From: Malus domestica
Taxonomy: Eukaryota; Streptophyta; Magnoliopsida; Rosales; Rosaceae
DNA length: 64,000 nucleotides
Reading direction: 5' to 3'
NCBI RefSeq assembly: GCF_042453785.1
Contig: NC_091674.1
Location: 21,115,001-21,179,000, forward strand
Positions 3,100-33,745 of the stretch are shown in pieces (within the stretch, counting starts at the first letter, position 1; each line of letters starts with the position of its first letter). Position numbers and translations under genes: made by a program. The notes below the pieces were generated by a model, which did not search any database, was not told the DNA's origin, and worked only from the letters and a program-made list of their open reading frames with translations.

Positions 3100-4540
3100 C
3101 CGTTTGTGGAATTCGAACCAGAGATTGAACAAAAGCTTAGGCAAATTCACAAGGAATAAAGAGAAGAGAAGGCTAAGGAGAAGAGCGAACAGGAAGATAT
3201 GGCTGCAAACGACAATAATGGTGGTGTGCCTCGAACCATTCAAGATTTCTTTATGTCGCAATTTTCTTCTCAACAATCATGCATAGTTTATCCTGAACTT
3301 GATGCTATAAGATCAAAGATTATGTTATTAACATGTTGCCCAAGTTTTCTGGTGATGAGAATCAAGATGCTAGTGAACATGTAGATAACTTTCTGGATAT
3401 TTATGGGACACAAAATATTAAAGGCATCTCCGATGAGTTCATTGACCCAAAGCTTTTCCCTTCTTCTCTCACGGGTGATGCTAGAACCTGGTTCAAGACT
3501 CTGCCAGCGAGATCAATTACCTCTTGGACTCAACTTTCCAGTAAGTTCATTCAAAAGATTTACACTCAGTCTAGAACTCAGAGGTTGAAGGATCACATAT
3601 TTCACTTTAGGCAGAACAAGGGAGAACCATTTTTTCAAGCATGGCAGAGATTTAAAGCTTTGATAATTAATTGTCCACACCATCAGTTTTTACCATGGCA
3701 ACTAATTTTATACTTCTACCAACACTTGAGTGACGAATGCCGACATAGATTGGATGCTGCAACTTATGGAAATATGTTTGGTAAAGAACAAGAGCAAGCT
3801 ACTATTATCATTGAGAATGTTGTCGCAAATTCATCTCAATGGGATAGTAGAGAGTTAACTCGGAATTCTGCATATGAAGTAAGTTCTGCACTATCAAGGA
3901 AATTAGATAATGTGGTGACTATGTTATCCAAGAATGCAGAATCGTGTGGGATTTGTGCTGCTCAGACCTATCTTACTCATCTTTGTCCTCAAAGTGGTAC
4001 TTGTTAAGAAGTTGAGGAGGCTAATCAAGTCAACGCGTTTAACCGTCGAAGAAACGACCCATTCTCAAATACTTATAATCCAGGGTGGAGAGAGCATCCT
4101 AATTTAGCTTGGAATAATAATTTTAACCAAGGATCCAAGCCATGGCAACAAGGAGCAGCACCTATAAAAACCAAGAACCTTCTTGGGAAGAAGCTTTTGC
4201 TCAGATGGTTCAAGCTAATACGCAATATCAACAAACCACCTCTCAAGTTTTGCAGGCTCTCCAACAAGGGCTGCAAATAAATAGTCAAGCCATCGATAAA
4301 TTGGAAACACAAGTCAGTCAAATCGCTGCTACAATGAGTGAAAGAGAATCCAGGCATTTCCCAAGTCAACCCGAAGTTAATCCACGAGGCAAGGAGCAAG
4401 TTAATGCCATTAGAACATTAAGGAGTTGTAAACCTTATGATAGAAGAGAAGAAATTGCTCTGAATGACCAAGAAGAGAATGCCAACCAAACAGCTATCTT
4501 CTTCACCACTCGCTGCTCCCACTCCTACTCCAAAAGTTGA
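3100..4540 (+). pseudogene. Ty3/gypsy (Athila-like) gag, broken
   Basis: A retrotransposon gag polyprotein gene. The longest open part, 3333-4007, carries the Retrotrans_gag core with 'FSGDENQDASEHVDNFLDIY' near its start and 'LTGDARTWFKTLP' further on. The N-terminal part (3100-3300, 'VPRTIQDFFMSQ') lies in another frame with a stop near 3158, and the C-terminal part (4010-4540, Gln-rich) needs a further frame change. Gag normally forms the capsid of virus-like particles. With these breaks the copy is dead. Its order PBS, gag, protease, polypurine tract is that of an LTR element. Confidence 0.85.
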
Positions 4541-4689
4541 AGAATTATGATCCTCATATGCCTTTCATGCAGAGATTTCAGAGGCAAAGAAAGGATAAGC
4601 ATATTTTAGATATATTGAAGCAATTTAAAAAGGTTTAAATCAACATTCCATTACTCAATGTTATAGCGCAAATTCCATCGTACACGAAA

Positions 4690-5534
4690 TTTTTGAAGGG
4701 TCTCTGCACAAACAAGAGGAAATTTATAGACCATGAGAAGATTGAGCTTACAAATTGTTGCAGCAAGGTTTTGATAACGAAGATGCCTCCAAAATTACAA
4801 GATCTAAGGAGTTTCACTATTCCATGTGTTATTGGTAATTTTAAATTTAATAAAGCTTTCTTAGACCTGGTTCCAGTGTTAATCTCATGTCATTTTCTAT
4901 TTATGAGCAGCTAGGTATTGGAGAGCTACAAAGAACATCTGTCTCTTTGCAATTGGCTGACCGATCGGTGACTTATCCCAAGGGCCTTGTTGAGGACGTT
5001 TTGATCAAAGTAGACCAATTCATCTTGCCAACAAATTTCCTTGTGCTTGACATGAAGGAAGACCAAAACATTCCTATTTTATTTGGTCGTCATTTCCTTG
5101 CAACCGCTGGAGCTTTAATTGATGTCAAAGCAAGCACACTTAAGCTACAAGTTCAAGGAGAATCCATAGAATTCAAGATGTTTGAAGCACTAAAGTTACC
5201 AGTCGACGTAGAAGAGTGCAGTCACATCGAGCTTATTGCTCCCATTGTCAATGTCAACTTCTTGGAGAATGTGTCTACATATTTGTTAAAGACATGCATT
5301 GAGTATCCAGATTTAAATATGGAAGGAGAGGCAGCCATGGACATAATTGCAACCCTAAACTTGTCCCCTATTCATGCACCAAAGTGGAGGCAAGCATGGG
5401 AGCCTTTAGGACCAGTAGTGCATCATTGTCTTATGTCGACACCAAATTTCAAAACTACAAGGTGGAAGAAAGGGAAAACGAAGAAGATGTATGGAGTGGT
5501 TCCTCATTTGAATGATCCGCCATCCTCGATTTAA
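4690..5534 (+). pseudogene. Ty3/gypsy aspartic protease region, broken
   Basis: Downstream of gag, 4693-4914 and 4887-5534 together encode a retropepsin-like domain: a degraded DxG-type start near 4862 and a second half with 'ILFGRHFLATAGALIDVK'. The two halves are in different frames because one G is missing from the run near 4868. No reverse transcriptase, RNase H or integrase follows; the sequence runs straight into the 'cttgggaggcaacccaa' region and a polypurine tract. The element therefore lacks pol beyond the protease. Confidence 0.75.
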
Positions 5535-6053
5535 TTTTGGCAAAGTCTAGCCCATGACTATAAAGAAGCCCTTCTTGGGAGGCAACCCAAGTTTTCTAAA
5601 TTTTTCTTTTGTTTTTCGTAGTTTCATTTATGGCATTAGTTTTTAATTTCCTTCATGATTTCAGGAACGGTGGTCTGCAATGATCCAGTTTGGGGGGATT
5701 ACGTTACAAGGCATGACATCTCAAGTTCAACATTGCTTATGCATGCTCCAATGAAAAATCCCGGGAAGTTTTCATACCCTATCTTTCATTGTGTTATTCA
5801 TTATGTTTTCTTTGTTTTACACATTGAGGACAATGTTTGATTCAAGTTTGGGGGAGGATTTTGTTCTCTGTGTTTTGTGTTCTGTTTTTGTTTAGTGTTC
5901 ATGTTGTCTATGTATGCGTAAAACTGTATTAACTGGGAAGGAATTTGAACATTTTGTCCGCACTTCAATTTTTGTCCTCTTTCCAGCCATATAAAGACCA
6001 TGAAAATTGGATTTTTCTTTCAAAAGTTATGATCAAATTATATTATATTATAT
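5535..6053 (+). mobile_element. 3' end of the gag-only LTR element
   Basis: This holds 'cttcttgggaggcaacccaa', then 'cattgaggacaatg', then the polypurine tract GGGGGAGG at about 5850-5857, features usual before the 3' LTR of Athila-like elements. A 3' LTR probably starts near 5862 (TGTTCTCTG) and is cut at 6054 by the Helitron-like element that follows. Confidence 0.55.
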
Positions 6054-6057
6054 TCTA

Positions 6058-6243
6058 TATATACTAAAACCCAAACGGCTGGTTACTGTTCTAGGGCAAT
6101 GTGCTGACCAAAATGCCCCTCAATTTGTTTGTTAAGCCAATTTTTTCCCATATATACTAAAACCCAAACGGCTGGTTACTGTTCTAGGGCAATGTGCTGA
6201 CCAAAATGCCCCTCAATTTGTTTGTTAAGCCAATTTTTTCCCA
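6058..6243 (+). repeat. Perfect 93-bp tandem duplication
   Basis: Two identical 93-bp units (6058-6150, 6151-6243) start with TATATACTAAAACCC. They repeat the 5' end of the putative Helitron, so the element start is doubled. Confidence 0.9.
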
Positions 6244-7738
6244 TATTTTCTACAGTAAAATGACTTCCTTGCCCTCCCAGGCCACGCGTTCATCCTCTTT
6301 CTACATTTTTCTGTTTGTTTCCTTATGTTGTTTGACTGCTGCTCTCCCAGTTTACCCATGTATAGCTGTTGGGAAAACAAAAAAAATATTTAAAAAATGT
6401 GATTAAAACGGGGCCACGTGGTTTGTGGCACAACTAACAATAAAAATTTATACCTTCTTAATTTTTTAAACTCATGTATAGCCGGTGGGAAGACTGAAAA
6501 AATATTAAAAAATGTGATACACAGTAAATTTAACGGGGCCTCTCACATACCACGTGTTGGTCATCGTGAGGTTTGCTTTTCACTCTATACACACCCTGCT
6601 TTTTGTTTTATTTCCCATACCCATTTCTGCTTTTTTATCGTTTTCCAAGCTCTCCGTTTCTTACTTTCGAATTTCACCTTCAATCCTTCCTTTTGAATCT
6701 TGCTTTCTGTTGTTCTCACCTCTTCTTTCCTCACTCAACATCGAATCAATGTAAGGTATTTCAACTTTTTTGTTTTGTTTTGTTTCAAACTGTAAGTTTC
6801 GTTTTCTTAGATTCGAAATTATAAAAAGTTAAATATTTTTTTTGGTTAATTTTTGTTTCCACAGTTGTATTTGTTTCAAAGATAATTATATCAGTTGAGT
6901 TGGTACTATTTTTGGATTTGTTTTGCAGGTTTTGTTTATACAGAGGCGAGGCCAATTTGACTTCCGCACTCTTTCTTGCCACGTGAGGGTAAACTTTACC
7001 TGATTAGGTAATGGACTGCAAATTTGTCATAAGATGTTAAGTTTCTTTTTAATCAAAGAATTTCAAAACATTTTTATCTGTTTATTTTGTTGTATGTTAG
7101 TTCGATTGGATTTGAGGTGCTAAAAATCATAAGCTAGATTTTATTTTGGTATAGCAATTTCATTGTCTGCTGTGTTTATGATGGTTTCAACAAATTGGTT
7201 AGCTGTTTGAGTATTTTTTTGGGTCCATAATTGTATCTCTTTGAAATAAATGCTGATATTAGTAGAGTTAATGCTGTTTTTGCCTTTGGTTCTGATTGGT
7301 ATCTCTGGTTGTTTCAGATCTTAACCCTTTTTTCTGAAGAAAAAAAAGAGAGTCGATTTGCTTTCCTATTATTTTGAAGAATTGTTTTCGTTATTGCTTT
7401 CAATGCGTTTTGTTCTGATTATTATTGTTGTTGTAGTTGTGTTTTATGATATTCTAACTACATATTTTTAAAGTTTCATCAGTCATTTAATCTTAGTTAA
7501 CCAATACTGTCTTTTTGTGTCACATTGTTTTGTTAAAGTTGTGTTTGTTCTTACATTGTTATTAAATTTTGATATAAATAAGCTTACGTCTCCTTATTTA
7601 TCTAGATTACTTAGGTAAGATAATATTCTCATGCAACTAATATCTAAGAAATTATTACTTATTTAAATATTTATTTTAACATCTGTATCATAACAATTCT
7701 ATAATTTATAAAATTTATATATGGTTTGAGTAGACTAA
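6244..7738 (+). other. Leader of the RPA1-like gene region
   Basis: AT-rich sequence with a diverged internal duplication (around 6355-6410 and 6475-6530, both with 'gggaaaac/gggaagac' followed by 'aaaaatgtgat' and a CACGTG motif). Candidate splice sites occur near 6928, but I see no convincing coding exon before 7739. It is probably the promoter and untranslated leader of the RPA1-like gene. Confidence 0.4.
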
Positions 7739-10700
7739 ATGGAAAAGGTAAACGTAACTCTCATCTCTGAATTACGTCCGTATACAAAAGCTGAGAAAAT
7801 AAAAGCTCGTGTGTGTAGAATATGGAAATCAGTAATTCATGGAGCTACTCAAAAATACACATCTCTACACTGCATTTTGCTTGATGAAACGATGAGAAAA
7901 CAACCTTTTATTTTAGGGAACTTTAACGAAAAACATCCGGTACTGTTCACTTTAACGAAAAACCATATTTTTACACTAAAAAGTCAATCATGATACTATT
8001 CACTTTACCCTTTATTTTGTCCTTATCATTTAACAAATTAACATTTTTGTTTCTCATACTCTTTTATGTATTCAATATTCAATGTTAAATATATAGTGAT
8101 GATCACAACGCATGCATATATACTTTGTTATTAGTTTTACATCATTCTTTCATTCCATAAAATGAACTAGATGTTTTTTTTCCAGCAAAACCCTATAATG
8201 CATTTAGATTGGTAATCAACAAAGAAACCAAATATTTTTAAATGAACTTGATTCTGTTTATACTTTTATATAATATTTCTGTTTCTTAATTTTTTAAATA
8301 TTGCTTCAAATCACTTAACTATTTTCGTTCATTCTATCTTTTCATGTCATTGCATCTCTCCATGTTAACAATTTAAATATTTATTTGAATTTGTATATTA
8401 ATCTCTTTTTTAACTTTGTTCCTTTTTCTTTTTTTACCGTTCTCTTCATTTACATAACCAACAATAAAGAAGCATGCGGTTGAAGGTTCCACGTCAGACA
8501 TTGACTGTGAGATTGTAGCGTCAAAATTTGAACCCGGCGGTTGCTATGAAATCACAAATTTTAGGACCACTAAAATAAGAGGGCAGTACAATGTAGTACC
8601 GCATGATAATCAGCTTATATTTAGTGGTATAACAGCCTTCAAAAAGCTGTCAAATGTGTTTCCACCCATTCCTCAACATCGTTTCTTTCTACAGGATTAC
8701 AACACACTTTATCCCCGCTTGAACAATGTTGACATTCTTACAGGTGATATTATTATACATGGTATAGATATATACATATTAAAAACACTGTTTTTTTTTT
8801 TTTTTGTCTAATTAATTTTCACAACTTTTTTATATTAACCTTCTTAATTGCAAGATGTCATTGGTCATCTCACTGCACTACAACGTTTGGAACAAAAACA
8901 AATTAATCAAAGGCTAGCATATAAGTGCCACAACTAATTGTTCCATGCCATTCCAAAACTTCGGTTACGTGAGTAAAAATATTTACCGGTGTTTTCTTTA
9001 CACTTTCTTATTATTTTTTTTCAATGCACAGAAAAAATTGTGATGAACAGTACTGGCTGCTCACTTTTCTCTGTTGATCCGGATATTCCAGAAGTAAATG
9101 CATACAAATCAGTGTAAGTATTCATACGAGTCTTCAAACAAATCAATGTAGCTTTATCCAAATGTGGTTGCTGTTATAACAGCAAAAGAAATACTAATCC
9201 TATCAATTTATTCAAATAATATTACATTTTGAATTCTCTAGGTTTGCAAATTGTAAAGAGCATATAAAAATATTGGCACCCTCCACAAAACAAGTGAATG
9301 AGGTTGAAATTTTGCGCACAGCTAAAAAATTAACAATCGATGAGCTGGCTTTTCTAGATCCCGATTTGCACAAGGTATCAAATCGAACTACATCTCTTTA
9401 ACATTTCTTACAAATGTACAACTACATTTTTACGTTTCCAATAAACATTGTATACATGATTACTATTGCTCATACCAAATTGTTACAAACTATTTTACAG
9501 AATGATACATTCCTATGTAAAGCATCTATCAAGCGTTTTGACACACGTAACGAATGGTGGTACAACGCATGCCCCAACTGTGTAAAACAAATGCACAAGG
9601 ACTTGACAATTGGACAACTCATTTGTCAAAAACATCCAAACCAAACTCCAACTCCTTGGTAATATTTAACATGCACCGTTACAAGTTCATAATAATCTGT
9701 CAAAATATTTTTCACCTTCATTTTTTTTCATTGCTTATATAATATAATTATTTACCAAATCTTTTTTGTTTTCACATTTTCACATCTTTGCTCATACTTG
9801 CCTAAATGTGATTTCAATATATATTGTCTAGATGAATTGGAAACTGAATATCAGTCTTAGTGATCATCATTTTTCAGTGTTTTCTACATTTGCTATCCAA
9901 AATTTTCTTACGGATAACATTTTGCTTAAATTTTGTGATGTTAAAATGAAATTCGGGACCTTTCTCAATTTCAAATTATTTAAACTGTTTTTAAATACAT
10001 TGTGTTATACAATGCAATCTTCGTCCACATTGTAATCGTTGTTATACAAGTTTACCCATCTCTACAAAATTGATACAACTTTTAGACTCTCCACAATGTT
10101 AATTTGATTAATTGTCAACTACAATCTGGTTCTTTTCATTTGGGTTTCGTAAACTTGTTCCAATGTTGTTTATCATTAGTATTCATGCATATTCTCTGTT
10201 TCTCATATTTTCATACGGTTACCATAAATAAAAGGTGTTAATGAACTTAATAAACATAGTTATCTTTATGCATTTAACTTCTAAACAAACACCACGCTTT
10301 TTTATTTTTCTGTTTTATTTCTATTTATATATATTGAATTTCAGGTTATTTTCCCTCATATACTTTGATTTTTAATATAGGTACAAAGTCAATTTGGTTC
10401 TTGAGGATGACACCAATGAAATCAATGCTCTAATAATTGGAAAATCTAGCGAATAACTTTTTGGTATCCCATGCAAGGACTTGGTACTGAATCAAAGATT
10501 GGTTGACCAACAACTGTTGCCAAACGAGTTTCTAAGGTTGATTGGGTAGAAAAAAAAATTTCACTTGCGATTTGGGAACAGAAGAAACACTTTAAATTCA
10601 AGTGATATTCTTATTTACAATGTGTCTGAGGATACAACCATGGAACCAATCACTCCACAACCATTGATCCAAGAAGTTACAGTATCTTCCACCACCATTT

Positions 10701-11001
10701 TATCCTCCACTTCAATAGCAGAAACAAGTGGACCATCATATAAACGAAAACGAGTCCAACAGGAAAGCTCTCTTTACCGGTGATGAACACAGGTTCGTAT
10801 TATGTTCCTTTTGTAATTACCAATTTTAAATCATCATGTACCCATATATTCTAACACTAACTTCCCATTTCAAACAGTGAGTTGGAAGAAATATCAGAGA
10901 CCAACCTAAAACAATTTGATGAGGTTCCTATCAAATCATTGAAAAAAAAATCGTCTCCAACTGGTGCAAAAAGAGACATCACACCACCAATAAAAGACTA
11001 G
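7739..11001 (+). pseudogene. RPA1-like (replication protein A large subunit) gene, Helitron type, broken
   Basis: RPA1-like proteins bind single-stranded DNA through OB folds, and plant Helitrons often carry one. Visible exons: 7739-7910 ('LISELRPYTKAEKIKARVCR', first OB fold); 8469-8743 ('CYEITNFRTTKIRGQYNVVP'); about 8857-8936; about 9030-9114; 9241-9375; 9501-9660 with a zinc ribbon (C-P-N-C then C-x-x-H); 10381 onward; and 10881-11001 ending in TAG. Breaks include a stop (TAA) near 8934, stops and a frameshift at about 10450-10555, and a repeat inserted at 7914. Order and splice sites match the family, so identity is firm but the gene is dead. Confidence 0.85.
7914..8030 (+). mobile_element. 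Short dispersed repeat ('gaactttaacgaaaa' family)
   Basis: The same sequence, reverse-complemented, is at 19428-19575, with shared core 'tttttacactaaaaagtcaa' and a 'cactttaccctttatt' segment. Here it interrupts the first RPA1-like exon after the codons for MRKQPF. Probably a MITE; clean target duplications were not found. Confidence 0.65.
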
Positions 11002-13121
11002 GTAATATACTTCAGCTTTATCATTTCTTCCACTATAAACACATTTATCTAATATATTTTGTTTTCTTTTCTGTGATTAGGTTGTTTTGTTAATGATCAG
11101 CACTATTATACCAAAACTGCAGCTGCTCCACTCAAAATCATATAATATCATCTGTTAATATATGTCAAAACTGTTCCAAGTGTTTTATGACATGTAAATC
11201 TCTTTTTCCTCAGAACTTGGCAATGTTTTTTGCATGTTGATACACTAGCGTCTGTTAGTTTTTGGTATTTCATTGCTAGTTCCAGTTGAAAAGCAGATAC
11301 AACTACCAAACTATGTTAGATGACTGTAATATTTTTTGCATGTACATATAACAGCATTTTGTAATTTTTTGTACCCAAATGCTGGTTCCACTAGAAGAAC
11401 AGCTAGAACCACTACACTATAATAGATGACTGTAATATTTAAATCTCAGGTTCTCCAAATTGAACTGTTTACCTATAAAGTTTTTCTAACCTCTTTGTTA
11501 TCTACGATGTTAACATTGTATCACTATTTTTACATTATTTGTAAACTATTTGATATAAATTTTAAACACTGTTTCTCGGCCAGTGTTTTGCCTTTTTTGC
11601 CCTCGAGTTGCTCTGTAAATTTAGGTTTTTGTGTGTTTTATACAGTGAAATGGCATTTTTCACCCTGGGCGTCCAACATAAGTTTCCCGACTTCTTTTCC
11701 TCGGAAATCGCAGAGAAATCAAAAAGGAAAAAACTGTGCTCTGCACATGATCGGCGATTCGATTCCACTTCGTGAGATCTGTGCGATCTTTGCTTCAGGT
11801 TCTTCTTTTAATTGCTATGTGTGTAGCAGCTTTGTTCAATTAGATATCTAATTGTTGATTTTCAGTTAGGGTTTTGAGGATCCAAATATCAATTCTTTGT
11901 GGGTTTGATTTGTCAAGAGTTTTGCCTTCTGGGTAGTTCTACCTTCAGCTCCAGAAGAACCTTCAATGAAAAAAGTTACCAGGTTAGTGATTGCTTTCAA
12001 AAAGTTACCCAATTGGATTTTTTCTTACTGTGTTCAAGAGAAAGAAGAAAGGTAAGAACTTTCAGCTGAGATAGTGCCTAACTCTCAAGTGTACTGTAAT
12101 TTTTTATCATTTCCAAAATTACCTTCTATAACAGAGAAAAGGGTGATGAATTTGACAAAGTTTGATGCTTTTTAGGATCGGTAGGCCACCATTTCTATCT
12201 GACTCCACAGGTAGTTTTTAACTTTTTATATGTATTAAGTTTTTTTTTAATATAAATTTTGAGTGATGTTTCATTCTTAAGCGGTGGTTTTTTTTGCTTT
12301 GCAGTTTCCAGTTTCTATTTGCACAAAGAACTTTCAGACAGGGTATAACTTCTTCAGGTGCGTGCTCTATATATTTCTCGAATTTTGATATCTCAAATCG
12401 ATATTGTTTATTAGATTTTGCTTTCGATCTGATTCCAATTGAGTTCGATTTCGAACTTGAATTTATATTCGATTTTGATTTACACATGTCCTATTTTTTT
12501 TTTGAAGAAATTTAGAGATGAAGGAATTCAAGTTGGAGACTTTGAGTTCAGGTTTTTTCAAATTTGTACAACCTCTTTCTCTATTTTCGTTAAATTTCTG
12601 GAATTTTTTGTATAATTTTATGAAGCGTTTAATTTTTTTTATTAATTAAATTACAAATAAGTATCAATGGCCTTCATTTGGTACCAATCAATCAAGTGAG
12701 AGATGTGTTGTCTGAATGTTTGAATTTGCTTGAATTAGTCTCTCCAAGTAGGAGAAAGAGAAGGATCTGAATGGGAGCAAGGCACGCCATGGAACAAGCA
12801 AGCTCATGAGAATGTTAACGTTCAAGGGACTCGGGGGAGGGTGACTGATCAACTGAAAAAAACTGAGGTATATGGTTTTTCTCTTCGAATTTCATAAACA
12901 TGAATGTATTTACATCTAATATTAACGGTACAAGGAATCAAATAATTAAAATTTGACCTAGAAAAATATTAGTTAAGCAAGCCAGTTCGCAAGTGTCTGC
13001 AGTGCACATATAATATGTTCAATTTCTTGAAAACCGTCTTTATTTCGCATATTAAACTGAGAAATTTGAAAAACCCTGTTCGAGATTTTGCTTGAAATCA
13101 TGGTTTGGGATTAAATAGCAG
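11002..13121 (+). other. Exon-like pieces of unknown origin between RPA1-like and CKS1 fragments
   Basis: After a diverged tandem repeat (about 11215-11340 and 11340-11440) the sequence becomes gene-like. A GC-richer piece with an ATG at 11649 runs to a splice-donor-like site. A piece around 11940-11980 ends AG|GTTAGT. A piece around 12660-12865 could encode 'VPINQVRDVLSECLNLLELV' and then a basic stretch, ending at GAG|GTATAT. I do not recognise the source. They look like further captured exons, since the CKS1 and CCCH fragments downstream have the same form. Confidence 0.4.
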
Positions 13122-13296
13122 GGTCAGATCCAGTATTCCGAGAAGTACTTCAATGATATCTACGAGTACAGGTATGCTCCTTTCTGCTTCGTTTTCTTTC
13201 GATTTTTCTTCATTTTTTTATAAACTTTTTGTTTGTTTTCAATGTTGGTACAGGCATGTGGCTAAACTGCTCCCAAAAAATGGGCTTCTGTGCGAG
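13122..13296 (+). pseudogene. CKS1: CKS1 (cyclin-dependent kinase regulatory subunit) fragment, two exons
   Basis: CKS1 is a small (about 80-90 aa) protein that docks on cyclin-dependent kinases. Exon 1 (13122-13171) encodes GQIQYSEKYFNDIYEY and ends at AG|GTATGC. Exon 2 (13254-13296) follows a TACAG acceptor and encodes HVAKLLPKNGLLCE, ending at GAG|GTAATT. The start codon is changed (AGG before GGT CAG), about five codons of the usual 'VVLPPE' part are missing, and no downstream exon with the WRAIGVQQSRGW region was found. The kept introns show a genomic origin. It is a dead fragment within the putative Helitron. Confidence 0.85.
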
Positions 13297-14545
13297 GTAA
13301 TTTATTAGGGTTTTCACTTTTTTTTATTGTAATATGTCCTTTTGAGAAATGCTTTGAGATTTGTTTGTGTTATTTTGGGTTTTGTGTAATCTTGGAATCT
13401 TTCCTTTTTCTTCAGTGGGCTTTTCGGTTTCGTTTACAGTTCTTTTGAGTGTCCATGAATTTTCAATGCTGGATTTCTGTGGATTTTGTTATTTGAAGAG
13501 GGAAACTATGGATTGGTTTGTTACTTGGTACATACGTCGTTTATATGCATCAAATTATATACATTCCTCCCTACTCAAATGTTCAAATGTATTCATTTAT
13601 GTATGTTTGCGCATTCACTTTCGTATATGTGCGTTAACTGCCATATATACAATACACCCATTTAGATTTGGTTAAATGAATAATGTACGTATACGAATTG
13701 GTCATTTCACACGTATAGATTGATAGTTAGATTGAATCAAAATTTCGTGAATTGGTCATACACTTTACGTGATTTCTATGCGGGAATGCTGGTGAATGCC
13801 TTATTTAATTTCCAAGAAATTGAAGCTGAGAATGTGGTATTTTCCTTTTGCTATGGAGAGTAGTGGATTTTGTGGTGCAGTAAATATGAGGCCCAATAAA
13901 AGTGTTTTTTTTTCCTTCTCTTATATTCATCTGTTTTCAATATTGGATTGGATTTGCATTAAGGGTTTTGTTGATCTGATATTATTGATAAAATACTAGA
14001 AAACCCACCTGAACTTAAGCACTTTTAGGGGTTTGTTCTGCTTTTGGTTCACTTAATATTCATACCTGTTTATGTTTTTACTTTTTAAGTGTGTTTTTAA
14101 GTTTTTTTTTTTTTTTTTTTTGTTCTTTGTAAGAATGTCTCCAACATGGTTTCTTTTTCGCACATCCTTTCAATAATTTAGATTGACTTCACCCCTAGTC
14201 CATTGACAGTTACTTTGTAGACGTTAGGGATGGGTCTTCTTCTTCAGCTTAGTGGGCACCGTACCTTTAGCAGAGCGTCTAGGTAATGCGACTGAGTAAG
14301 TGCTAGCTTTTTGTTTAAGCATTAAGTTATCTTAACTTTGCTAAGGCTAATTCTTAAGTTTTTCATTATTCTCTTAACTTTATGTTTTTTATTTTTGTAA
14401 ATATCATTTAGTAATTTACTATAATCTGATTGCTTGATCATTTGATACTCAATAATTTCGCCAGGGCATCGGATGTTCAACTTAACATCACAAGTAAATT
14501 GCATTGGTTCTTTCCATTGAATTTATGCTTTGGCCTTGCTCAACT
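13297..14545 (+). other. Intron-like and unassigned sequence
   Basis: AT-rich sequence, including a long poly-T at about 14104-14122. The first part may be the remains of the CKS1 intron 2. A short piece at about 14205-14310 is less AT-rich and could be another exon scrap, but no protein was recognised. Confidence 0.35.
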
Positions 14546-14746
14546 GAAGTCCTTCCCGAGAGACCTGGAGCACCAGATTGTCCTGTAAGTAGCACTTCAA
14601 TTCTTTATTCTTTTTGCAGAAATAATGCATTAAGCACTTGAACTGTTAATTGATCCTTTTCCATTTGCATGTTGCAGTACTTTATGAAGACTCAAAGATG
14701 CAAATTTGTATACCGTGCAAGTTTAATCATCCGAAGGACAAAGTTA
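14546..14746 (+). pseudogene. CCCH-type zinc-finger protein fragment, two exons
   Basis: Exon A (14546-14584) encodes EVLPERPGAPDCP and ends at CCT|GTAAGT. Exon B (from 14678, after TTGCAG) starts YFMKTQRCKF and continues toward a C-x-F-N-H-P-K-D end. This is the start and body of a C3H1 finger of the plant ZFN/HUA1-like family, which binds RNA. A one-base shift near 14708 breaks the frame between the second and third cysteines. Only one finger remains of proteins that usually have five or six. Captured fragment inside the putative Helitron. Confidence 0.75.
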
Positions 14747-14801
14747 CTACAACTTTCCATAAAGTGGTTCCAATGATATAGTTTCATATATAATACTCTT
14801 A

Positions 14802-15836
14802 GGCCTCGTTTGTTTGACCTCCTTAGCTAGGACTGGACTGGCTAGGACTAATAACCCATGTTTGGTGCAAGTCGGGATTGAGTTTAGTGGGATTAAGTCG
14901 ACTCGTGCCGACTAAATCCTTCGTTAGCTGGGCTTAGTGAGAGCCCCCGAAAAGGAGAGGATTGCTAGTCCCGTTTCCCCGCTTCCCCGCTTCCCCTCAC
15001 TTTGCCTCACCCCACGCCTGTGAACTTGCCCTCCCACTGTCTTTCTCCCCACCTCCCTCTTGTCTGTCCATAAGATCTCTAAGTCAGAGACCCAGAAAAC
15101 CCAAAAAAAGCCAAAAACCCAGAGATCGAAAGCAGATTCATATAAAATATACCAAATTGAAGCTGGGAGTGACAAAATTACGATTCTACCTAAATCGAGG
15201 CCAAAAGGAGGTTGAATGTGGCTGGAAAATGGTATGGAAGTCTCGGCCTGTTTGGGCTTCTTCGAATCCATGACATATTCGAGCATGCAAAGCTAAGATC
15301 TTGGTCTAGGGATGGTGTGGAATTTTTTGGCAGTGCCAACTTCATCCAATTCAACGAGGGTTGGCCGAAAAACATGTCGGGAAACCTGCAACTCGTCGGG
15401 AAAAATGGAGCTGTGAGGTTCTGTTCGAACAACGCACAGCTAGAGAGGGAGGGAGGATAGAGAAATAGAGATTGGAATCGATAAGGAGCTTGACCGGGAA
15501 TGAGAGAAAGACAGGAATTGAGAGGTTTGGGAGGAAAAAAAGAGGGAGAGGGTGGGACGAAGAACTGAGAGAAGAGGGAGAAAGTGGGACGAAAATGGTA
15601 GGAAAAGATGGAGAAAATGGTAGGAAAAGATGGAGAAAAAGATAAGATCATAATAAAATATTAATAATTTATAGATTAAATAATATAATATTAGAATTTG
15701 TTATTATCCAGCTTCTTAGTCCAACATTGCACCAAACGCTTCACTAAGATAATCCGGCTTAATCTAGTCTAAGCCAGTCCAGTTTAGTCCTTGAAGCTAG
15801 TCCAGTCCGAGATAGTCTGGCGCAACAAACGCACCC
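14802..15836. mobile_element. PIF/Harbinger-like non-autonomous element (1,035 bp)
   Basis: The ends GGCCTCGTTTGTTTGACC and (inverted) GGGTGCGTTTGTTGCGCC form imperfect terminal inverted repeats, and a TTA duplication flanks both sides (14799-14801 and 15837-15839). The subterminal regions are also inverted copies ('ggactggactggctaggact' at the left; a similar inverted stretch at the right). A TTA target duplication points to PIF/Harbinger. Long frames inside are low-complexity and encode no transposase. It sits directly after the CCCH fragment. Confidence 0.7.
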
Positions 15837-15941
15837 TTACACTCTCTTTTACTAATTTTTGTTACACAATCAATCACTCACAGGGTCATACTATTCATAG
15901 AACCCTAAAACCCAAATTTCTCCAGATCATTCCAAAATTCA

Positions 15942-16061
15942 ATGGCAAACACAAAACCCAGATCCCTAAACTCACTCGATAACGTGTCAAAGGCTGGGCA
16001 TCCAGTTCTCTCATGTTGCTCCCGTTGGATCCAGTATGCTTTTGCTGCTGCCAATCTACAG
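15942..16061 (+). pseudogene. Unidentified exon-like piece with intact donor site
   Basis: An ATG at 15942 opens a 40-codon frame ending FAAANLQ at CAG. Before a SINE inserted at 16062, this exon would have ended CAG|GTAAAG, a good donor. The source gene is not recognised. It lies in line with the other captured fragments. Confidence 0.4.
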
Positions 16062-16147
16062 GTCGTACCCAGTGCACAAGGCTCCCGCTTTACGCAGGGT
16101 CTGGGAGAGATGAATGTCGGCTAGCCTTACCCCCATTTATGGAGAGA
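16062..16147 (-). mobile_element. SINE, 5'-truncated, minus strand
   Basis: An 86-bp insert that on the minus strand matches the 3' part of the SINE at 17656-17804, ending in 'tgcactgggtacgac'. It is flanked by 17-bp duplications CTGCTGCCAATCTACAG at 16045-16061 and 16148-16164. The tail 'tgcactgggtacg' resembles the Au SINE family of plants. Confidence 0.9.
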
Positions 16148-16164
16148 CTGCTGCCAATCTACAG

Positions 16165-16970
16165 GTAAAGCTTAAATTTACATACAATTTTTATTTTTAT
16201 TTTTCTTGATTGGAATTTGGGCTTTTTGTTCCTCCTTAATCCCAAAGTTCTGTAATGTATGCAACTTTGATCGAAAGACATGTTTTTTATTGCTAAAAAT
16301 TGTTAACCCCAGTTTAGGTATTCATTTGCTCATTAAAATTGCATTTTGGATTCCGTAACTGAACCTCCTTGCTCCTCTTTTAACTCTAGAATCTTCAGTA
16401 TACATGTGGGTTTTGCTTTGAATTTGATAAACCTCTCTGTGTTTGTGAGCTGATACAGGTTTTGGGTACTAAGTCAAAATTTTGTTGGATAGGAACCCAT
16501 AAACAAGTATGAGGAAGTGTGTGAATCATCACTCAGCAAGGGTGATTGGTGATAGAAATTGGGTTATTCCATTCATTACTGGCTTTATCATATTCATTAC
16601 CCTCTTTTTCTTAAAAGGGTTTTGGCTCTGGAAGGAGATGGAGATCGGTGACAATGATCGGAGTTCATCGCTGTGTGGATGATCCCAGTGTAGCGCTGGT
16701 TTTCAACTGTGGTGATTTGTAGGGTTTTGGGGGCGTGAATTTTGGGGGATTTTGTTTGGGTTTTTGGGTAAGCAATTGCCACCTCTATTCAACTTAAATT
16801 TAGTTCCCTTTTTTTGTTTCTCAAATTTGTTTGATGGAAAGATTGTTTTATCCTTTACTAAACAGTTTTTAGGATTAATGGTTTTGATTTCTTTTGAATT
16901 TATTTTTTATTTTATTTTGAAGCCCTGTAATATGTATGCTTTTGATCATGTCTTTTATTTTGGTGGCAGT
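16165..16970 (+). other. Unassigned sequence between SINE and beta-amylase fragment
   Basis: Nothing was recognised. A stretch around 16620-16750 is GC-richer and could be an untranslated leader of the captured beta-amylase piece. Confidence 0.3.
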
Positions 16971-16982
16971 TAGGTGTCACTA

Positions 16983-17112
16983 GATGGTCTACTAAAGCAG
17001 CTAAGGGTATTGAAATCAGTTATGGTTGATTGGTGGTGGGGAATTGTAGAGGGATATGGTGGATATGAGTATAATTGGAATGGATACAAGAGGCTCTTTT
17101 AGATGGTACAGG
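16983..17112 (+). pseudogene. Beta-amylase fragment
   Basis: After a GGCAG acceptor-like site the frame encodes [12 protein letters not shown], then [11 protein letters not shown], then [10 protein letters not shown]. This is the conserved N-terminal strand region of glycosyl hydrolase family 14, which releases maltose from starch. A few codons of the usual 'VDGVMVDCWWG' block are missing and a TAG stop replaces a Gln codon after KRLF. It is a single exon of a gene normally coding for about 500 residues. It is the last recognised host fragment of the putative Helitron. Confidence 0.8.
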
Positions 17113-17634
17113 CCTGTTTTATATAAATACGTTTTTTCACTTGCAGAAGCTCTTCTCTCTCAGTGGGCATATAAACACCACCTGTGGTTAATTGTTTTGC
17201 AATCTTTGTGGTCCTTTTTATTCTTTCCATGGTTTCCTGTAATGCTTGGCAAAGTTTTGAGAATTAGTCTCTACAATGTGGGAACCAAGGAACTCACTTC
17301 CCCTTCATGCTCTGAATTCACACTTAGTCTGGAGATTATATAATCATTTGGGCATGGTTTCTCTCTAGGATAAAGCTTCTGTCTGTCTATATATATGGAA
17401 TTGGGTTTGTGTAATTAATGTCAAATAATTGAGTGAAAGAGTTAAGCTCTCCTTTTACGCAACAAACAATCCCTCTCTTTTTGTAAACCAATCCAGCCAA
17501 ACCTTTCTTATATATCTTAAAAACAGTCTGTGATAGCAAAGATAAAAATGCATTTTTTTAATGAAATGATGTGGGTTAGTCAAGTTATATACAAGACTTT
17601 GTTGTTGGATTATATTATAGATGAATAATAAATA
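17113..17634. other. No feature recognised
   Basis: AT-rich sequence with weak open frames. It may still belong to the captured beta-amylase intron or the end of the Helitron, but no CTRR end with a hairpin was found. Confidence 0.3.
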
Positions 17635-17655
17635 TTATGTGGATTCAGTTGCTTT

Positions 17656-17804
17656 TTATGCGGCAAGTGCCTTCGTCCATGAGCGGTAGGTCTCGGGTTC
17701 GAGACTTGGGAGCAGCCTTTCCATAAATGGGGGTAAGGTTAGCCGACATTCACCTCTCCTAGACCTGCGTAAAGCGGGAGCCTTGTGCACTGGGTACGAC
17801 CTTT
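17656..17804 (+). mobile_element. SINE, near full length (Au-like)
   Basis: A tRNA-like head with a Pol III B-box-like GGTTCGAGACT (17696-17706) and a tail ending TGCACTGGGTACGACC plus a short T run. It is flanked by perfect 21-bp duplications (17635-17655 and 17805-17825). Truncated copies are at 16062-16147 and 43141-43238. Confidence 0.9.
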
Positions 17805-17825
17805 TTATGTGGATTCAGTTGCTTT

Positions 17826-18615
17826 CATTTATTTTTAAATAATTTACAAATGAGTGCTAAATTTTGATTACGGTTTCAAACCCGCAGCAGAGTGCGGCCT
17901 TCTTTGCTAGTCTTTGTCTAAAGGTCGAATTGCCTATGGTATTATCATATTGGGCAACCTCTGTTGGCATATGTTCTTTTCCTCTGTTTATTTGTTCTAT
18001 GTTTTGTTCTTCTATTTAAGTCTTAATGTCATAATTTTTTTTTATAAAAAATGGTGTCAAAAAGTCAAAAAAAATTTCTTTTTCTTGAGTCGTTTTCTTC
18101 TAGTTAGACCTTCCATAAGTCAATGATAATAATTCGTTTTCTTCTAGGTCACAAACTTATTTGAATTGGTTCTTCTTATGTGAAATTTCAATTGCTTGAT
18201 ATGGTTAATCCGATTCTTACGTGATCATTCTCAAGTTTATCTTATACCAATAACCAATGTCAGTATGATTATCTCTTACTTAGAGAATTGTATGTGGATT
18301 TTAAGTGAAAATTTATTGAACCCATGTGAGATTTTGAGCCTCTTGCATATTTTTTCTTGTGAGTTTCATGATAGCGTTATCATTCACTAGAACTTGCTTC
18401 AATATCTCTCGAGGCGAAATCTTAAGTCATGCAACACTAGGGAGATGATTTTGGCCATGTTTGGATCGTTTGAGCCTTTCTAACCAACCTTTTATGTTAT
18501 CTTATCCCTAGTTACCCTTTTGAAGCCAAACACTAAGCCTTTTCTTTCATCACCCACATTCATCCCTACCCATTTAGCCTATATTAGCCATTCCCTATAG
18601 CTTAAGGAATACCAA
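17826..18615. other. No gene recognised
   Basis: AT-rich intergenic sequence with no protein similarity or element ends that I can support. Confidence 0.35.
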
Positions 18616-18689
18616 GTGGACATCAAGGAAGATAAAGGTTGGGTTCTACATCAAAGATGTGGTGTATACCGAGGTACCATGTGTAGTGT

Positions 18690-18778
18690 AGGATTATTTT
18701 TATTCTTCTTTGAAGTAAAAAATAAGAAAAAAAAAAAACAGAAAGAAAAGAATCGAAAAGAGAGGAAAAGAAAAAAAA

Positions 18779-18822
<44 letters not shown>

Positions 18823-18958
18823 CAAAGAAGTTAGGATTATTTTTATTATTCTTTGAAGTAAAAAATAAGAAAGAAAAAAAACAGAAAGAAAAGAATCGAA
18901 AAGAGAGGAAAAGAAAAGAAAAAGTGTATATATATAGCAAAGAAGTTAGGAAAGAAGA
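18690..18958. repeat. Tandem duplication with (TA)n microsatellite
   Basis: A unit of about 120-140 bp starting 'ttaggattatttttatt' and running through an A/G-rich stretch occurs twice (about 18690-18830 and 18831-18950). The first copy ends in a (TA)n run at 18782-18821; the second has only a short TATATATA. The microsatellite has expanded in one copy only. Confidence 0.85.
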
Positions 18959-19427
18959 GTTTGAAATTGTTTCATCCCTACATCGTGAGTCCTGGACGCC
19001 AATAATAGAAGATCCAAGTTTCAAAGAGGACCGACTGAAAGTACATTATGAAGATACCTTGTTATTTCTTAAGTTTTAGCTACTTATGAAGACAATAACA
19101 CAATATTGTCATTTGCATAGGAATGAGAGGGAAAAATAAAATTGAGGATATGAATTAGCGGGAAAAAATAGAGGGAAAGTTTTGTTTTTTTTAATTTATT
19201 TTCAGTTTTTAATAGTTTTTAAGAGTGAAATGACTTAACTACCTTCACATGTTATGTACATGGTCTCACTTAACAAAAATTTGGATGAAATATATGATAA
19301 ACTAACGGTAAGGGGCAAATTGGCTAAAAAAAATTAGTTTGAGTCCTTAATTTTCCAATAGAAAAGTTAAAGGGGGAAATCGAAAGTTAAGTGAAAGTTC
19401 AGGGGGTAAATCGATAGTTTACTCGGA
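18959..19427. other. No gene recognised
   Basis: AT-rich sequence, with 'gtaaatcgatagtttac' near the right end. No feature supported. Confidence 0.3.
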
Positions 19428-19575
19428 AAACTAATGAAAATGGGTTGAAAACTTTGAGTTTTAACGATAAGAACAGAATAAAGGGTAAAGTAAATAGTAT
19501 CAGGATTGACTTTTTAGTGTAAAAATATGGTTTTTCATTAAAATGAACAATACCGATAGCTTTTCGTTATAGTTT
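19428..19575 (-). mobile_element. Short dispersed repeat, second copy
   Basis: Reverse-complement copy of the repeat at 7914-8030, here with the extra outer part 'gaaaactttgagttttaacg'. It is probably a MITE. Confidence 0.6.
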
Positions 19576-21059: not shown

Positions 21060-23336
21060 AATGATGATCCTCTCCGAATTCTCTTTGTGAGGATCTTTGG
21101 AATCTTCGAATTATGTCCGTTTATCGTACATCGTGTGATTAATTTTCGTCAGATACTATTCATATTTAACTTTAAATAGAAATGGTCCATGTGATTGAAA
21201 ATCAATAGAAATGGTCTCTGAGATTGCCCACTATCTATGACTTTGGTCATTCCGTTAAAAACTCTATGGGTAATTTTCAAAGCTTCGTAACTCAATCGAT
21301 TATTAACCAAATTCGACCCATAATATATCAAAATGAAGATAGGAAAGTGTAGAAGAAGATTATACTACGGGTGGGCAAACGGGTCCTGGACCCGCGGGTA
21401 GGGGCAGATCCTTACGGTTCGGGACGGGTCCAAAAATTATAAATACGAAACGGGACGAGGCGGGCCGGTTTTAAAAATTTGAGAAAACGGGCCCCCAGCC
21501 CAGACCGTTCTCTACCCTCTCTACTATCTCTTTTTTTTTTTGTCAAAGATACATCTCAGACCCCCACCCAATTGGGCCAATTCACTCTACTCTTCGTCTC
21601 TCCCCTCACATCACCTTCTCTTTCTATCCCGACTCCGACTCTCCTCCCTCGATCTCTCATCCTTGCATCTTCTTTCCTTTCTCGTCTCAGACCTCTCTCA
21701 AGCCCAGGCTCCCATCTCAAACCTCAATCTCGACCACTCCTTCTTCTGACATGCTGCAGATGCACTTCTACGAGACCTGTGACGATCAACACAGTCTTCA
21801 AGTTTCACAAGCTGCTGGCCGGACTCAACCTTGTTTGACTCGTTGGAGGGGTCGGCAAACATGCAGGATAAGGTGATGTTGGAGGTTTATTTGGGGAAGC
21901 AAATCTACAATCTTGGTGGCGTGCGAACGGTTGGACCAGGTGGAGAGGTACAATCACCATCGTGGCATCCTCTCCTAACTCTCCATCGTGGCATCCCTAG
22001 GTAATTTATAAATTAGGGTTTCTGATTTAGGAAATTAGGGTTTTTTATTTAGGAATTTAGGGTTTTTTATTTATGTGGGTTTCTGATTTTGTTTTGATTC
22101 ATCAACTGATGTGATTTGTAATTGCGAGGGTGGAGGTCTTGGATCCGTGGAAAGATGACGTCTTTGGTTCGATTTGCCGATTTGAACAATTTGATTATTT
22201 GTGAGATTGATTTGATGTAGTTTTGTGCGTAAGAGTAATGGGTTCTGTTTGAAACTATGGATCTAGGATTTCATGGTTTGCTTATTTCGGGACATGCATG
22301 GAAGTTAACATGTGCGGAGTATACATAAATGTTTGTAGGATTTGTTTTTTTGTGTTCTGAGTAGTGCAAATGAGGGTCTAAAATTGTTGGTTTTGCTTTT
22401 GCTTCTGCTCAGCATATCGAGGCAGTTCCAAAACCGAATAAAAATCCAAAACCGAATAAAAAAAAAAAGTAATTGGACCCGTGAACTCGTCCCGAACCGG
22501 CCCGTTTGAAACGGGCCAGGTTAGGTTCGGTTCCCAAACTCAAAACCCTTCTACCCGGCCCGGGCCGGCCCTAGATTATACCTATTTGAAAGCCCAATGA
22601 TTGCCGGAGATGGCTGGAAAATAGCCTGAAGGGTGACAAGTCCGCGGGAAAACTGGAAAACTCGTCAGAAACTGGGTAAATTTTAAATGTTCATAACTTA
22701 TTCAATACTCAACGAAATCGAGTGATTCAAAAACAAAAATCATACTTCTCGATGAGACGAAGATAATGGTACCTTTCTTGACGGCTAACTCGCCATGGTT
22801 GTCCAAAAAAGTGCTCAAAAGTGACTAACCATTTTTGAGTTAGCCACTTTCAAGCAGTTTTTCGGCCAAACCACAGAGATTTATCCGTCGATAAATGTAT
22901 CATTCTCTTCGTCTAGTCGAGAAGTATGATTTTTGTTTTTGAATCACTTGATTTTATTGAGTATTGAAGAAGTTATGAACGTTTAAAGTTTACCCAGTTT
23001 CCAGCGAGTTTTCTAGTTTTCCAGTAAACCAGTCACCTTTCAGGCTATTTTTCAGCCATCTCGGATAACCATTGGGCTTCAGAAACGATTGAGTTACGAA
23101 GCTTTGAAAATTGCCCGAAGAGTTTTTAGCGGAATGACCAAAATCATGGATGGTGGACAATCTCATAGACCATTCTATTGATTTTCAATCTCAGGGACCA
23201 TTTCTATTGATTATGCAAATCTTAGGGACCATTTTGGCTATTTAGCATTTTCTAGCCGCACGATGTACAATAAATGGATACAATTTGAGAATCCCCAGGA
23301 TCTTTACAAAGAGGATCCGGGGAGGATCCTCAATTC
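21060..23336. mobile_element. Mutator-like fold-back element, split by a hAT element
   Basis: Perfect 9-bp duplications AATTTAACG flank it (21051-21059 and 23337-23345). Outside the hAT insert the element is nearly all palindrome: the left arm (21060-21357 plus 22582 to about 22815) pairs with the right arm (about 22835-23336). Its ends carry the GGATCCTC motif of the MITEs at 539-741 and 23346-23518. Without the insert it is about 1.06 kb. No transposase. Transcripts would form a long hairpin. Confidence 0.85.
21366..22573. mobile_element. Non-autonomous hAT element (1,208 bp) in the fold-back element
   Basis: Perfect 8-bp duplications GATTATAC at 21358-21365 and 22574-22581. The ends are TACGGGTGGGCAAACGGG and, inverted, TAGGGCCGGCCCGGGCCGGG. 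The 8-bp duplication and the TAGGG..GGGC type of end indicate hAT. No transposase was recognised; the frame at 21479-21838 is Ser/Leu/Pro-rich low-complexity sequence. Confidence 0.85.
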
Positions 23337-25275: not shown

Positions 25276-26014
25276 TAGGGGTGGTTAGTATGAGATCTCA
25301 AATTGAAAATGGGATCCCGAATCTCAAACCAAAAATTTTTAGGACATGAATTTGAAGATCAATCCCGAACCGAAATTTCGGTATTCCTAATTTTCGAGAT
25401 TCCCGAAATGTTTTCGGTATTTCGGGATTGGATTTTGGGTTTTTGGGTTGAAATTTGAGATTTTTATTGGATGTGGGCTAAAATTTGGGTTTTTTTTACC
25501 TCATATTAATTTAAGTTTTTTAATTGAAATCTAGCCCACATAAAAAAAATCTCAAATTTTAGGTTTTTTTATCTCATATTAACCAAATGTGGGCTACAAT
25601 TTGGGCTTTTGGTATTTGGAAATGTTCCCCAATTTCATATTAAATGAAATTTGAGTTTTTTTATCTCATATTAATTTGAAATTTCACACCAATTGAAATG
25701 CCAACTCATTCATACTTAAGCCAAATTGATGTTCCAAACTACTTAATTTCATACTTCTATTTCTAATTAGTTTATTATCAAACCACTTAAATTCAACATT
25801 TAACATGTATGCAACCAAAATAAATATATATATTTTTCAGTTTGGTTCGGGATTCTCGAACTATTAAATATGTAATCTCAATTCTCGTGCTAAAAGGTTC
25901 GGGATCAATTCAATATTGATCCCGAAAATTTTGGTATTATCGGTTGAGGAATTTTTCAGAATGGGATTGGGATTTTGTTGGTTTGGGACTTTTCGGGAAA
26001 ATTTTCTAGCCATA
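25276..26014. mobile_element. hAT-like element upstream of the YSL gene
   Basis: Begins TAGGGGTGGTTAGTATGAG and carries many 'cgggat'/'atcccga' motifs in both orientations. The right end (TTTTCTAGCCATA) is mirrored by the copy at 35690-35812, where it reads TTTCTATCCCTA. A clean 8-bp duplication was not found. The right part is shared by both YSL blocks, so it inserted before the block was duplicated. Confidence 0.55.
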
Positions 26015-26112
26015 GATATTTCTACACTTTGTGGTTTTGGAATTTGTAGGCTTGTGAGCAGAGTAAAATGACGAGGATAGACCCGTCCAAGTACTAATTT
26101 CTGCACTTTGTG

Positions 26113-26121
26113 GGCTATATA
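26113..26121 (+). promoter_or_regulatory. TATA box of the intact YSL gene
   Basis: CTATATATA lies about 70-80 bp before the start codon. The same box with the same flanks is at 35938-35946 in the duplicated copy. Confidence 0.6.
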
Positions 26122-26189
26122 TATTCATCAAGGAAGCATCCTTTTCTTGTTCCCATTGCCTGACAAACAAGCAACAGGACTGTGAAGCC

Positions 26190-28912: not shown

Positions 28913-29293
28913 AGTGAAAAGGCTTTATATATGCATATATATATCTGTGGTTAGTGAGAAATGGGTAAAAAAAACTAAAGGGCACATCATAGCAATTAGT
29001 ATTTAGTATAGGGAAGAATGGTAGCAAGTTGTATCCGATCCTACACAATAAAAATTTATTCTTGTCACCGAAAACCGAAGGAATCCGAGGTAAAACTTAA
29101 GAAGAGATACAAAAAGTGGTTCAACAGAGTGAAATCTGACTATGCAAAGAAAAATTGTATTGTTCGTGTCAAAAAATTCGTAATATACAGAGTTTATTCA
29201 AACGAGTCATTCTCAATCGTAAAATTATACATCACTCGAAGCAAAATCAAGGAACTGATGATACATTAAACGAAAAATAAAAACTACGTTAAA
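28913..29293. other. YSL 3' flank, shared by both duplicated blocks
   Basis: This contains the probable 3' untranslated region (with 'tatatatgcatatatatat') and intergenic sequence up to the HLB1-like fragment. It aligns closely with 39145-39536, so it is part of the duplication. No gene of its own. Confidence 0.7.
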
Positions 29294-29634
29294 TCAGCCT
29301 GTTACAATACCTGCCAGAACATCACTCTTACCCCGCGCATAGATAGTGTAGACTAGACAGATTGCATCAAGCCATTCATCAAGGAATTCTCATGAATCAG
29401 CAACCTGGAGGTTGAACATTCGCATTAGAATCAGTTTTCATATAGAAATGCAATGTTTTAAGTCCAGTTTTTATGCACTTGACAGACCGCCGAAAGTTTT
29501 TTATGATTTGTTGCCATCACAAAGAACAAAAGAACTTCTCTTCAAATAAAATTTTTTATCTGTTACAAGGGGCATTCCTTAGCAGATAGACGGGTCCATG
29601 AATTGTATCAATGCAGAGGCCTGGTGGTAAAGTC
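29294..29634 (-). pseudogene. HLB1-like 3' fragment (last exon and part of the one before)
   Basis: 29294-29404 copies the last exon of the TPR gene at 39537-45198 but has TGA where the intact gene has TGG in the [11 protein letters not shown] motif. 29583-29634 copies part of exon 13 with a short deletion and a lost donor site. It stops at 29634, where the copia LTR begins. It is the end of the duplicated YSL block and is not functional. Confidence 0.9.
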
Positions 29635-31690: not shown

Positions 31691-31947
31691 TGTTGGAAAA
31701 TTAGTTATTATTTTACTATTGTTTATGATATTGTTGTGGGCCAAGGATATCAAAGTTTCTTGCCCGTCTAGGATTAGGGTTTTGCTTTAGTTTTCACTAT
31801 ATATAGGAGTGATTGTATTAGTTTATCTGATTAAGTTATTCACAATGTAACCTCTCTTGGAGTTTTGTAGCCGTTTCGGCATTTTCGTTTATTTAATAAT
31901 ATTCTTATTTTGGTAGTCTTGTTCGTTGCACACTCTGATATTCAACT
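31691..31947. mobile_element. Short solo LTR in the copia element (257 bp)
   Basis: Begins TGTTGGAAAATTAG and ends ATATTCAACT, flanked by 5-bp duplications ATACA at 31686-31690 and 31948-31952. The last base is T where A is expected. It carries a TATA-like TATATATAGGAG. It is inserted in the coding strand of the copia element. Confidence 0.7.
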
Positions 31948-33737: not shown

Positions 33738-33745
33738 ACTCCAAG

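Follow-up and report, generated by a model that had tools for sequence, protein, structure and literature searches.

Composite Helitrons, in which one element lies beside or within another, have already been proposed in print. In maize, Helitrons insert near or into other Helitrons and nested composites have been put forward (PMC3288121), and in Fusarium oxysporum the FoHeli elements are proposed to form composite or chimeric elements by self-insertion, with deletion of the inner termini (PMC5148889). The 3' hairpin is the terminator in the Helraiser assay: a downstream cassette was captured in ∼11.7% of events when the hairpin was present and in at least 36% when it was missing (PMC4778049). 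Here we describe a locus of Malus domestica, contained in a window (the whole stretch of DNA analysed, 64,000 nucleotides, C14:21115001-21179000), that is likely to consist of two non-autonomous plant Helitrons, H1 and H2, which lie head to tail in a long terminal repeat (LTR) retrotransposon and arose by stacking of one element on the other followed by erasure of the termini between them, wherever this took place. What is new is a case read at base level, together with its likely precursor state. A literature search of titles and abstracts, with subscription papers outside it, returned none that described this composite.

The locus resembles FoHeli in that a Helitron sits beside or inside a Helitron, the inner termini are deleted or mutated while the outer ones are kept (as proposed there) and short 5' duplications are present; indeed, one FoHeli4 inserted 2 bp upstream of the 5' terminal partial sequence of another (PMC5148889). 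In contrast to FoHeli as described there, the microhomology in the window places the junction to the base, pieces of host genes are carried by one of the partners, and the same genome also contains stacks that have not fused. The nested maize Helitrons, with their multiple termini and stepwise gene capture, are similar with respect to insertion near or in Helitrons and the presence of several gene pieces per element. They differ in that the inner terminus is retained as a pseudo-terminus, whereas in the window it has been removed, and the upstream partner here carries an RPA-like gene (PMC3288121). H1 is comparable to the rice Mothra mother element with PHRPA (PMC4683698), which also contains an RPA-like gene and no RepHel, and is 6.5 kb long against about 5.5 kb for H1. 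Unlike the Mothra family, which has a hairpin and CTAG, H1 has neither, and the two are likened by gene content, not by terminal sequences.

A single insert in a retrotransposon

The elements of the locus are as follows.

3303-6037, plus strand: left part of the host LTR retrotransposon copy (gag at 3303-4004; last host base A at 6037)
6038-17910, plus strand: whole insert of 11,873 bp, a probable two-Helitron composite with later nested insertions
6038-6052, plus strand: 15 AT-only bases between the A of the empty site and the usual H1 start, as judged from the starts of H1 relatives
6053-11567, plus strand: H1, an RPA-type Helitron with its 5' terminus kept and its 3' hairpin and CTAG lost (relatives on C4, C7, C8, C11, C5 and C9)
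11564-11567, plus strand: H1/H2 junction, microhomology AAAC
11564-17910, plus strand: H2, a Helitron carrying gene fragments and lacking its first bases (copies without H1 at C14:15.01-15.02 Mb and C17:33.80/33.82 Mb)
17874-17910, plus strand: H2 3' terminus, with inverted repeat CCGCA...TGCGG and CTAG, followed by host T (empty site; flank of the C14 copy)
17911-19085, plus strand: right part of the host retrotransposon copy (the right flank joins the left flank in relatives)

The left flank encodes a gag (Pfam Retrotrans_gag, E 4.5e-19), which identifies the host of the insert as an LTR retrotransposon copy. In searches over the whole genome, all made on one assembly (651 Mb, 19 contigs), the DNA to the right of the insert proved to be a repeat, seven copies of which, among the matches listed, start matching exactly at 17911. 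Nine relatives of the host retrotransposon were fetched. Five contain the empty site GATCAAA/TCTTTG, or a close variant (the slash marks the point of insertion), one has a small deletion over it, and in the remaining three the site is missing, the left match ending at 5857-6006 and the right match beginning at 18055. The insert therefore occupies an A/T step without target site duplication, as is the rule for Helitrons, and 6038-17910 is best read as one insertion locus. The initial annotation had proposed, from the sequence of the window, a chimeric Helitron of at least 11 kb at 6054-17112. A single A/T-bounded insert of 11.87 kb bears out the size; the range was too short, since the 3' end lies ∼800 bases beyond it. 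Several separate insertions at an empty site, which would have spoken against that proposal, were not found: the empty site is single, though three later insertions sit inside the insert.

Two Helitrons joined at a microhomology

Relatives of H2 occur without H1, and relatives of H1 without H2. H1 is most similar to a copy on C4 (81-86% identity over long stretches), and homology of the window to the RPA Helitron type ends at the AAAC of 11567, just short of the 3' hairpin of the relatives. The relatives include five near-identical RPA Helitrons, on C7, C8 and C5 (5.66 kb, 99.6%) and twice on C11 (about 99%), all of which close with a strong hairpin and CTAG/T. As the match to C4 extends to 11567 and the matches to C14 and C15 start at 11564, H1 and H2 are fused at the 4-bp AAAC, and the two inner ends (3' for H1, 5' for H2) have been lost. 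When the junction was used as a query, both of its sides were matched by the window alone, the C9 and C6 matches beginning further downstream. Directly after the junction, the sequence is like the 5' subterminal part of a Helitron.

On C14, H2 is present with a 5' tip of its own and no H1 sequence in the ∼0.7 kb read upstream, and, barring insertions and deletions, this copy runs through the CKS, CCCH and amylase parts described below to the same 3' end as in the window. Two copies on C17 have in common with the window H2 the stretch 12563-14801 and the beginning of the amylase part. Kimura two-parameter (K2P) distances between the window H2 and the other copies were 0.042-0.048 in the longer comparisons, and 0.012 over one stretch of 170 bases. 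The 3' end of H2 was located through these relatives. CTAG occupies 17907-17910 with the host T next, in keeping with the CTRR end of Helitrons, and after CTAGT the flank of the C14 copy differs from the window. The search for further copies of this 3' end, which the initial annotation had suggested, showed that the terminal 105 bases of the insert have matches at 11 further places; in 10 of them the match reaches CTAG/T, but the query ran two bases beyond CTAG, and the search alone cannot place the end. The five-pair inverted repeat, which lies where a Helitron hairpin is expected, about 10 nt before the 3' end, and has four mismatches in 21 positions to the 3'-end consensus of the relatives, was assigned by its likeness to them.

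Unfused Helitron pairs elsewhere in the genome

Six H2-type 5' ends were read. On C9 and C17 the 3' end of another Helitron (CTAG) directly touches the H2-type tip, the end in the window is fused, those on C14 and C15 have ordinary flanks, and that on C6 is without the tip. Genome-wide, CTAGTATATACTAAAA has 32 exact occurrences, compared with three of the reversed pattern. In 17 of the 20 sites read, a Helitron 3' end is present at the right distance before CTAG/TATATACTAAAA. A 21-nt 3'-end consensus, picked by eye after the 20 sites had been seen and allowing at most six mismatches, was satisfied by 17/20 stack sites (L062, L076 and L079 failed) versus 1/105 CTAGT sites in the window, the single hit being the end of H2 itself at 17907. 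When the larger loci were all added to the window, counting those that overlap, 16 of 438 CTAGT sites satisfied the consensus, and these are the ends of RPA Helitrons, H2 and the C6 element. A simple stem rule discriminates less well (8/20 stack sites against 17/105 control CTAGT sites). A wider pattern, consisting of a hairpin arm, CTAG, T, four bases and ACTRAAA, gave 31 matches compared with none for its reversed control, the four bases being ATAT in 16 of the 31. These data show that a Helitron 3' end abutting the 5' tip of another recurs in the genome in the unfused state.

The 17 stack sites comprise 12 upstream and 12 downstream groups, as judged from short ungapped stretches in a sample of 20 of the 32 sites of one assembly. 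Since several groups meet more than one partner, at least several of the stacked pairs must, on this grouping, join different families. The head-to-tail order is shared with simple replication concatemers of one element, but the mixing of partners among the groups is not what such concatemers would give.

Gene content of H1 and H2

All the pieces named in the initial annotation (the 5' end, the RPA-like gene, and the CKS, CCCH and beta-amylase fragments) are present on the plus strand. Those in H1 are listed first.

6057-6252, plus strand: tandem duplication of the H1 5' terminus (copies 6057-6159 and 6150-6252, 98%)
7740-10675, plus strand: decayed RPA-like gene (exon pieces by translation; in-frame stops)
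7915-8033, plus strand: short multi-copy repeat within H1 (second copy at 19460-19574, inverted)

The 5'-end sequence of H1 has relatives elsewhere in the genome, and H1 relatives begin A/TTCTATATATACT (C6) or A/TCTATATATACT (C17). The TC typical of such ends is found at 6054, but the empty site sets the boundary at 6038 (TTATATT...); starts among the relatives are TTC, TC or TTAT. With an RPA-like single-strand-binding gene, H1 conforms to the plant RPA-type Helitrons (PHRPA), the gene being decayed. Its exon pieces, with borders set by eye, lie at about 7740-7890, 8458-8742, 8854-8934, 9032-9114, 9243-9374, 9501-9659 and 10378-10675. When joined they match 'Replication factor A' sequences in PDB (E 6e-6 to 2e-5), and score E 1.5e-4 against Pfam DUF223, under the cut-off of that family. 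No match to PF14214 is listed in the window, and the composite is for this reason predicted to be non-autonomous. Elsewhere in the genome at least 142 RepHel-N matches were obtained (150 of 177 candidates were scored), several with open frames of >1,000 aa.

H2 contains the following pieces.

11797-12564, plus strand: pieces of other loci (11797-11924 and 12203-12564 of one locus type, 11917-12200 of another)
13119-13296, plus strand: CKS piece, two exons and an intron (Pfam CKS)
14536-14744, plus strand: CCCH zinc-finger piece with intron (91.5% to C10:33719535-33719746)
15898-17434, plus strand: beta-amylase-related piece (Pfam GH14, E 2.8e-7; C3 copy, 92-97%; C14 copy)

In the first of these regions 11797-11924 and 12203-12564 match C7:12.154 Mb and three more places, and the interrupting stretch 11917-12200 matches C7:35.709 Mb. 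Two translations from 12.2-12.9 kb had no Pfam match. The two CKS exon pieces, when joined, reach a Pfam E of 1.3e-6, just over the cut-off. CKS matches over the cut-off are located at C11:13.7218 Mb and C3:12.1541 Mb, and C11:13722332-13722642, beside the former, is 80% identical to window 13022-13322. The CCCH piece was compared with zf-CCCH in two typed versions, giving E 9e-4 (below the cut-off) and 3e-4 (just over it, with two reading frames joined). The related locus on C10, of which 801 bases were read, encodes two fingers, and the 91.5% match includes the intron. Since the CCCH piece retains this intron and is cut inside exons at both sides, it represents captured genomic DNA. With pieces of host genes that include introns, and related genes elsewhere (CCCH on C10; CKS on C11 and C3), H2 has the hallmarks of a gene-capturing Helitron.

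The amylase piece lacks 179 bp and about 275 bp that are present in other copies. Its close sisters are on C3 (93-97% over the longer matches), while fuller amylase loci, including C1:16.59 and C7:20.22 Mb, are 70-78% identical to it. The C3 copies were considered as donors and rejected, since the GH14 matches listed there on that strand represent the same small exon only; they are more likely to be sister fragments. A C16:10.826 Mb match to window 13876-14113 was likewise discarded as a host donor, as it lies ∼2.2 kb from a stack-pattern site. Two clusters of related sequence were also observed. In C3:23.4-24.6 Mb, partial matches to beta-amylase lie densely on the two strands, and several of them are sisters of the H2 amylase piece. 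At C11:16.68-16.90 Mb the CKS-to-CCCH part of H2 is matched in part (79-92%) by a cluster of sequences that are perhaps older relatives of the element.

Later insertions and other features of the window

Three further elements, a miniature inverted-repeat transposable element (MITE) and two short interspersed nuclear elements (SINEs), lie within H2.

14799-15839, strand not assigned: later MITE (element 14802-15836, 3-bp TTA target duplication; absent from the C14 and C17 H2 copies)
16045-16166, minus strand: later truncated SINE (element 16064-16147, 19-bp target duplication; absent in L050, L051 and L054)
17635-17825, plus strand: later SINE (element 17656-17804, 21-bp target duplication; absent in L050)

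The MITE, which we take to be Tourist-like, and both SINEs are missing from all other H2 copies read over those sites, and are later insertions.

Outside the insert, a direct duplication (25903-29623 and 35693-39868, 87-98% in pieces) contains a transporter gene of OPT/YSL-like type (27572-28909 matches Pfam OPT at 1.5e-82). Its copies are separated by a minus-strand, Copia-like reading frame (30790-35216, by eye). Nested, MITE-like inverted repeats occupy 21210-23174 (arms 22590-22800/22869-23079 and 21210-21306/23078-23174), and a large imperfect inverted repeat of ∼1.1 kb at 51020-52125, with several arm pairs 89-92% complementary, is perhaps a foldback element. A long minus-strand reading frame at 46567-47991 with a Rab-GAP TBC domain (5.7e-28) is probably a host gene, and 53636-54172 is a tandem repeat with a unit of ∼79 bases.

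Origin of the composite

In the sequence of events that we favour, H2, with the host-gene pieces already aboard, would have inserted into the retrotransposon, and the AT-rich 5' tip of H2 would next have received an H1-type Helitron. Two AAAC repeats, one before the hairpin of H1 and one in the 5' region of H2, would then have been the end points of a short deletion that removed the 5' tip of H2 along with the 3' hairpin (terminator) of H1. The 15 extra AT-only bases before the usual start of H1 may be a trace of its landing at the tip of H2; they may be either H1's own tip or the displaced tip of H2. An arrangement in which H2 sits inside the tail of H1 was considered and is excluded, because host sequence resumes directly after the CTAG of H2. 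With one 5' and one 3' end remaining, RepHel supplied in trans could in principle mobilize the RPA gene and the gene pieces together, stopping at the 3' end of H2. The RepHel-N matches with long frames elsewhere in the genome make such mobilization by rolling-circle replication possible.

Several points weigh against this reconstruction. A strict scan of 10-22 kb for a hairpin, CTRR and T returned no 3' end, since the stem assigned to H2 has only five pairs, and in the minimum-energy structure of the final 41 bases a pairing other than the assigned hairpin is preferred. The count of CTAGTATATACTAAAA was controlled by the reversed pattern and not by other tetramers before the same tip. In this assembly we found neither an unfused precursor of the H1-H2 pair nor the fused junction a second time; more than one junction copy would be expected of a composite that moves as one unit. 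The case for H2 having come first depends on the excluded alternative and the 15 AT-only bases, which could be H1's own, and the history of the site was read from one assembly of a single haplotype and species.

The composite may instead have been built elsewhere and have arrived by one rolling-circle transposition that read through past the hairpin-less H1 into H2 and stopped at the H2 3' end. The single clean A/T empty site, flanked by the 5' end of H1 and the 3' end of H2, is consistent with this route, as is the fact that the missing part of H1 is exactly its terminator; in the Helraiser assay, hairpin loss raised read-through at the 3' end (PMC4778049). A pair built in place predicts the same empty site, however, and the genome yielded neither a donor nor a sister copy of the junction. 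We regard this route, which is not exclusive of stacking and erasure, as rather unlikely. It is improbable that the junction reflects a template switch, made while a Helitron intermediate was being replicated, in which synthesis left H1 in its 3' subterminal region and resumed in the 5' subterminal region of a distant H2. Such a switch would produce both the 4-base microhomology and the loss of the two inner termini, but the recurrence of adjacent head-to-tail pairs renders a distant switch unnecessary, and a short deletion is simpler.

In the model of the initial annotation all the pieces belonged to one element, a single RPA Helitron having itself captured the CKS, CCCH and amylase fragments. 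Their common orientation, common outer ends and one empty site agree with this, and the single outer insertion stands. The gene pieces, by contrast, belong to H2 and not to the RPA Helitron, for the same pieces occur without RPA on C14 and C17, with their own 5' tip on C14, while H1-type relatives continue to their own 3' end at the point where the window switches to H2. Capture by a single element is contradicted unless the C14 and C17 copies lost an H1 part, and is very improbable. That the pieces represent host genes at their usual location, a case that the initial annotation had held against its own model, or unrelated side-by-side insertions can be dismissed as barely credible, for although several nested insertions do occur, related host loci are found elsewhere (CCCH on C10, CKS on C11 and C3), the CCCH piece is cut within exons and the empty site is single.

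Significance for Helitron evolution

The origin by stacking and erasure that we favour may be an instance of a wider process, which we advance tentatively and hold to be somewhat less probable than its converse. The 5' tip of plant Helitrons, being rich in A/T steps or nicked by RepHel, may be a preferred landing site for Helitrons, so that head-to-tail chains form across families, and loss of a terminator through deletion between short repeats may then convert such a chain into one larger mobile element. If true, the window would represent a finished product of this process and the unfused pairs its precursors.

Arguments about how Helitrons grow and acquire pieces of multiple genes are often built on single elements. 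In the present case the separate partners, recurrent unfused pairs, and an erased junction together with its empty site can all be seen in one genome. Under the proposed origin, a single pair of termini would come to enclose both an RPA gene and captured host exons although the RPA element itself had captured nothing, and the stepwise route to composite Helitrons becomes testable by counting.

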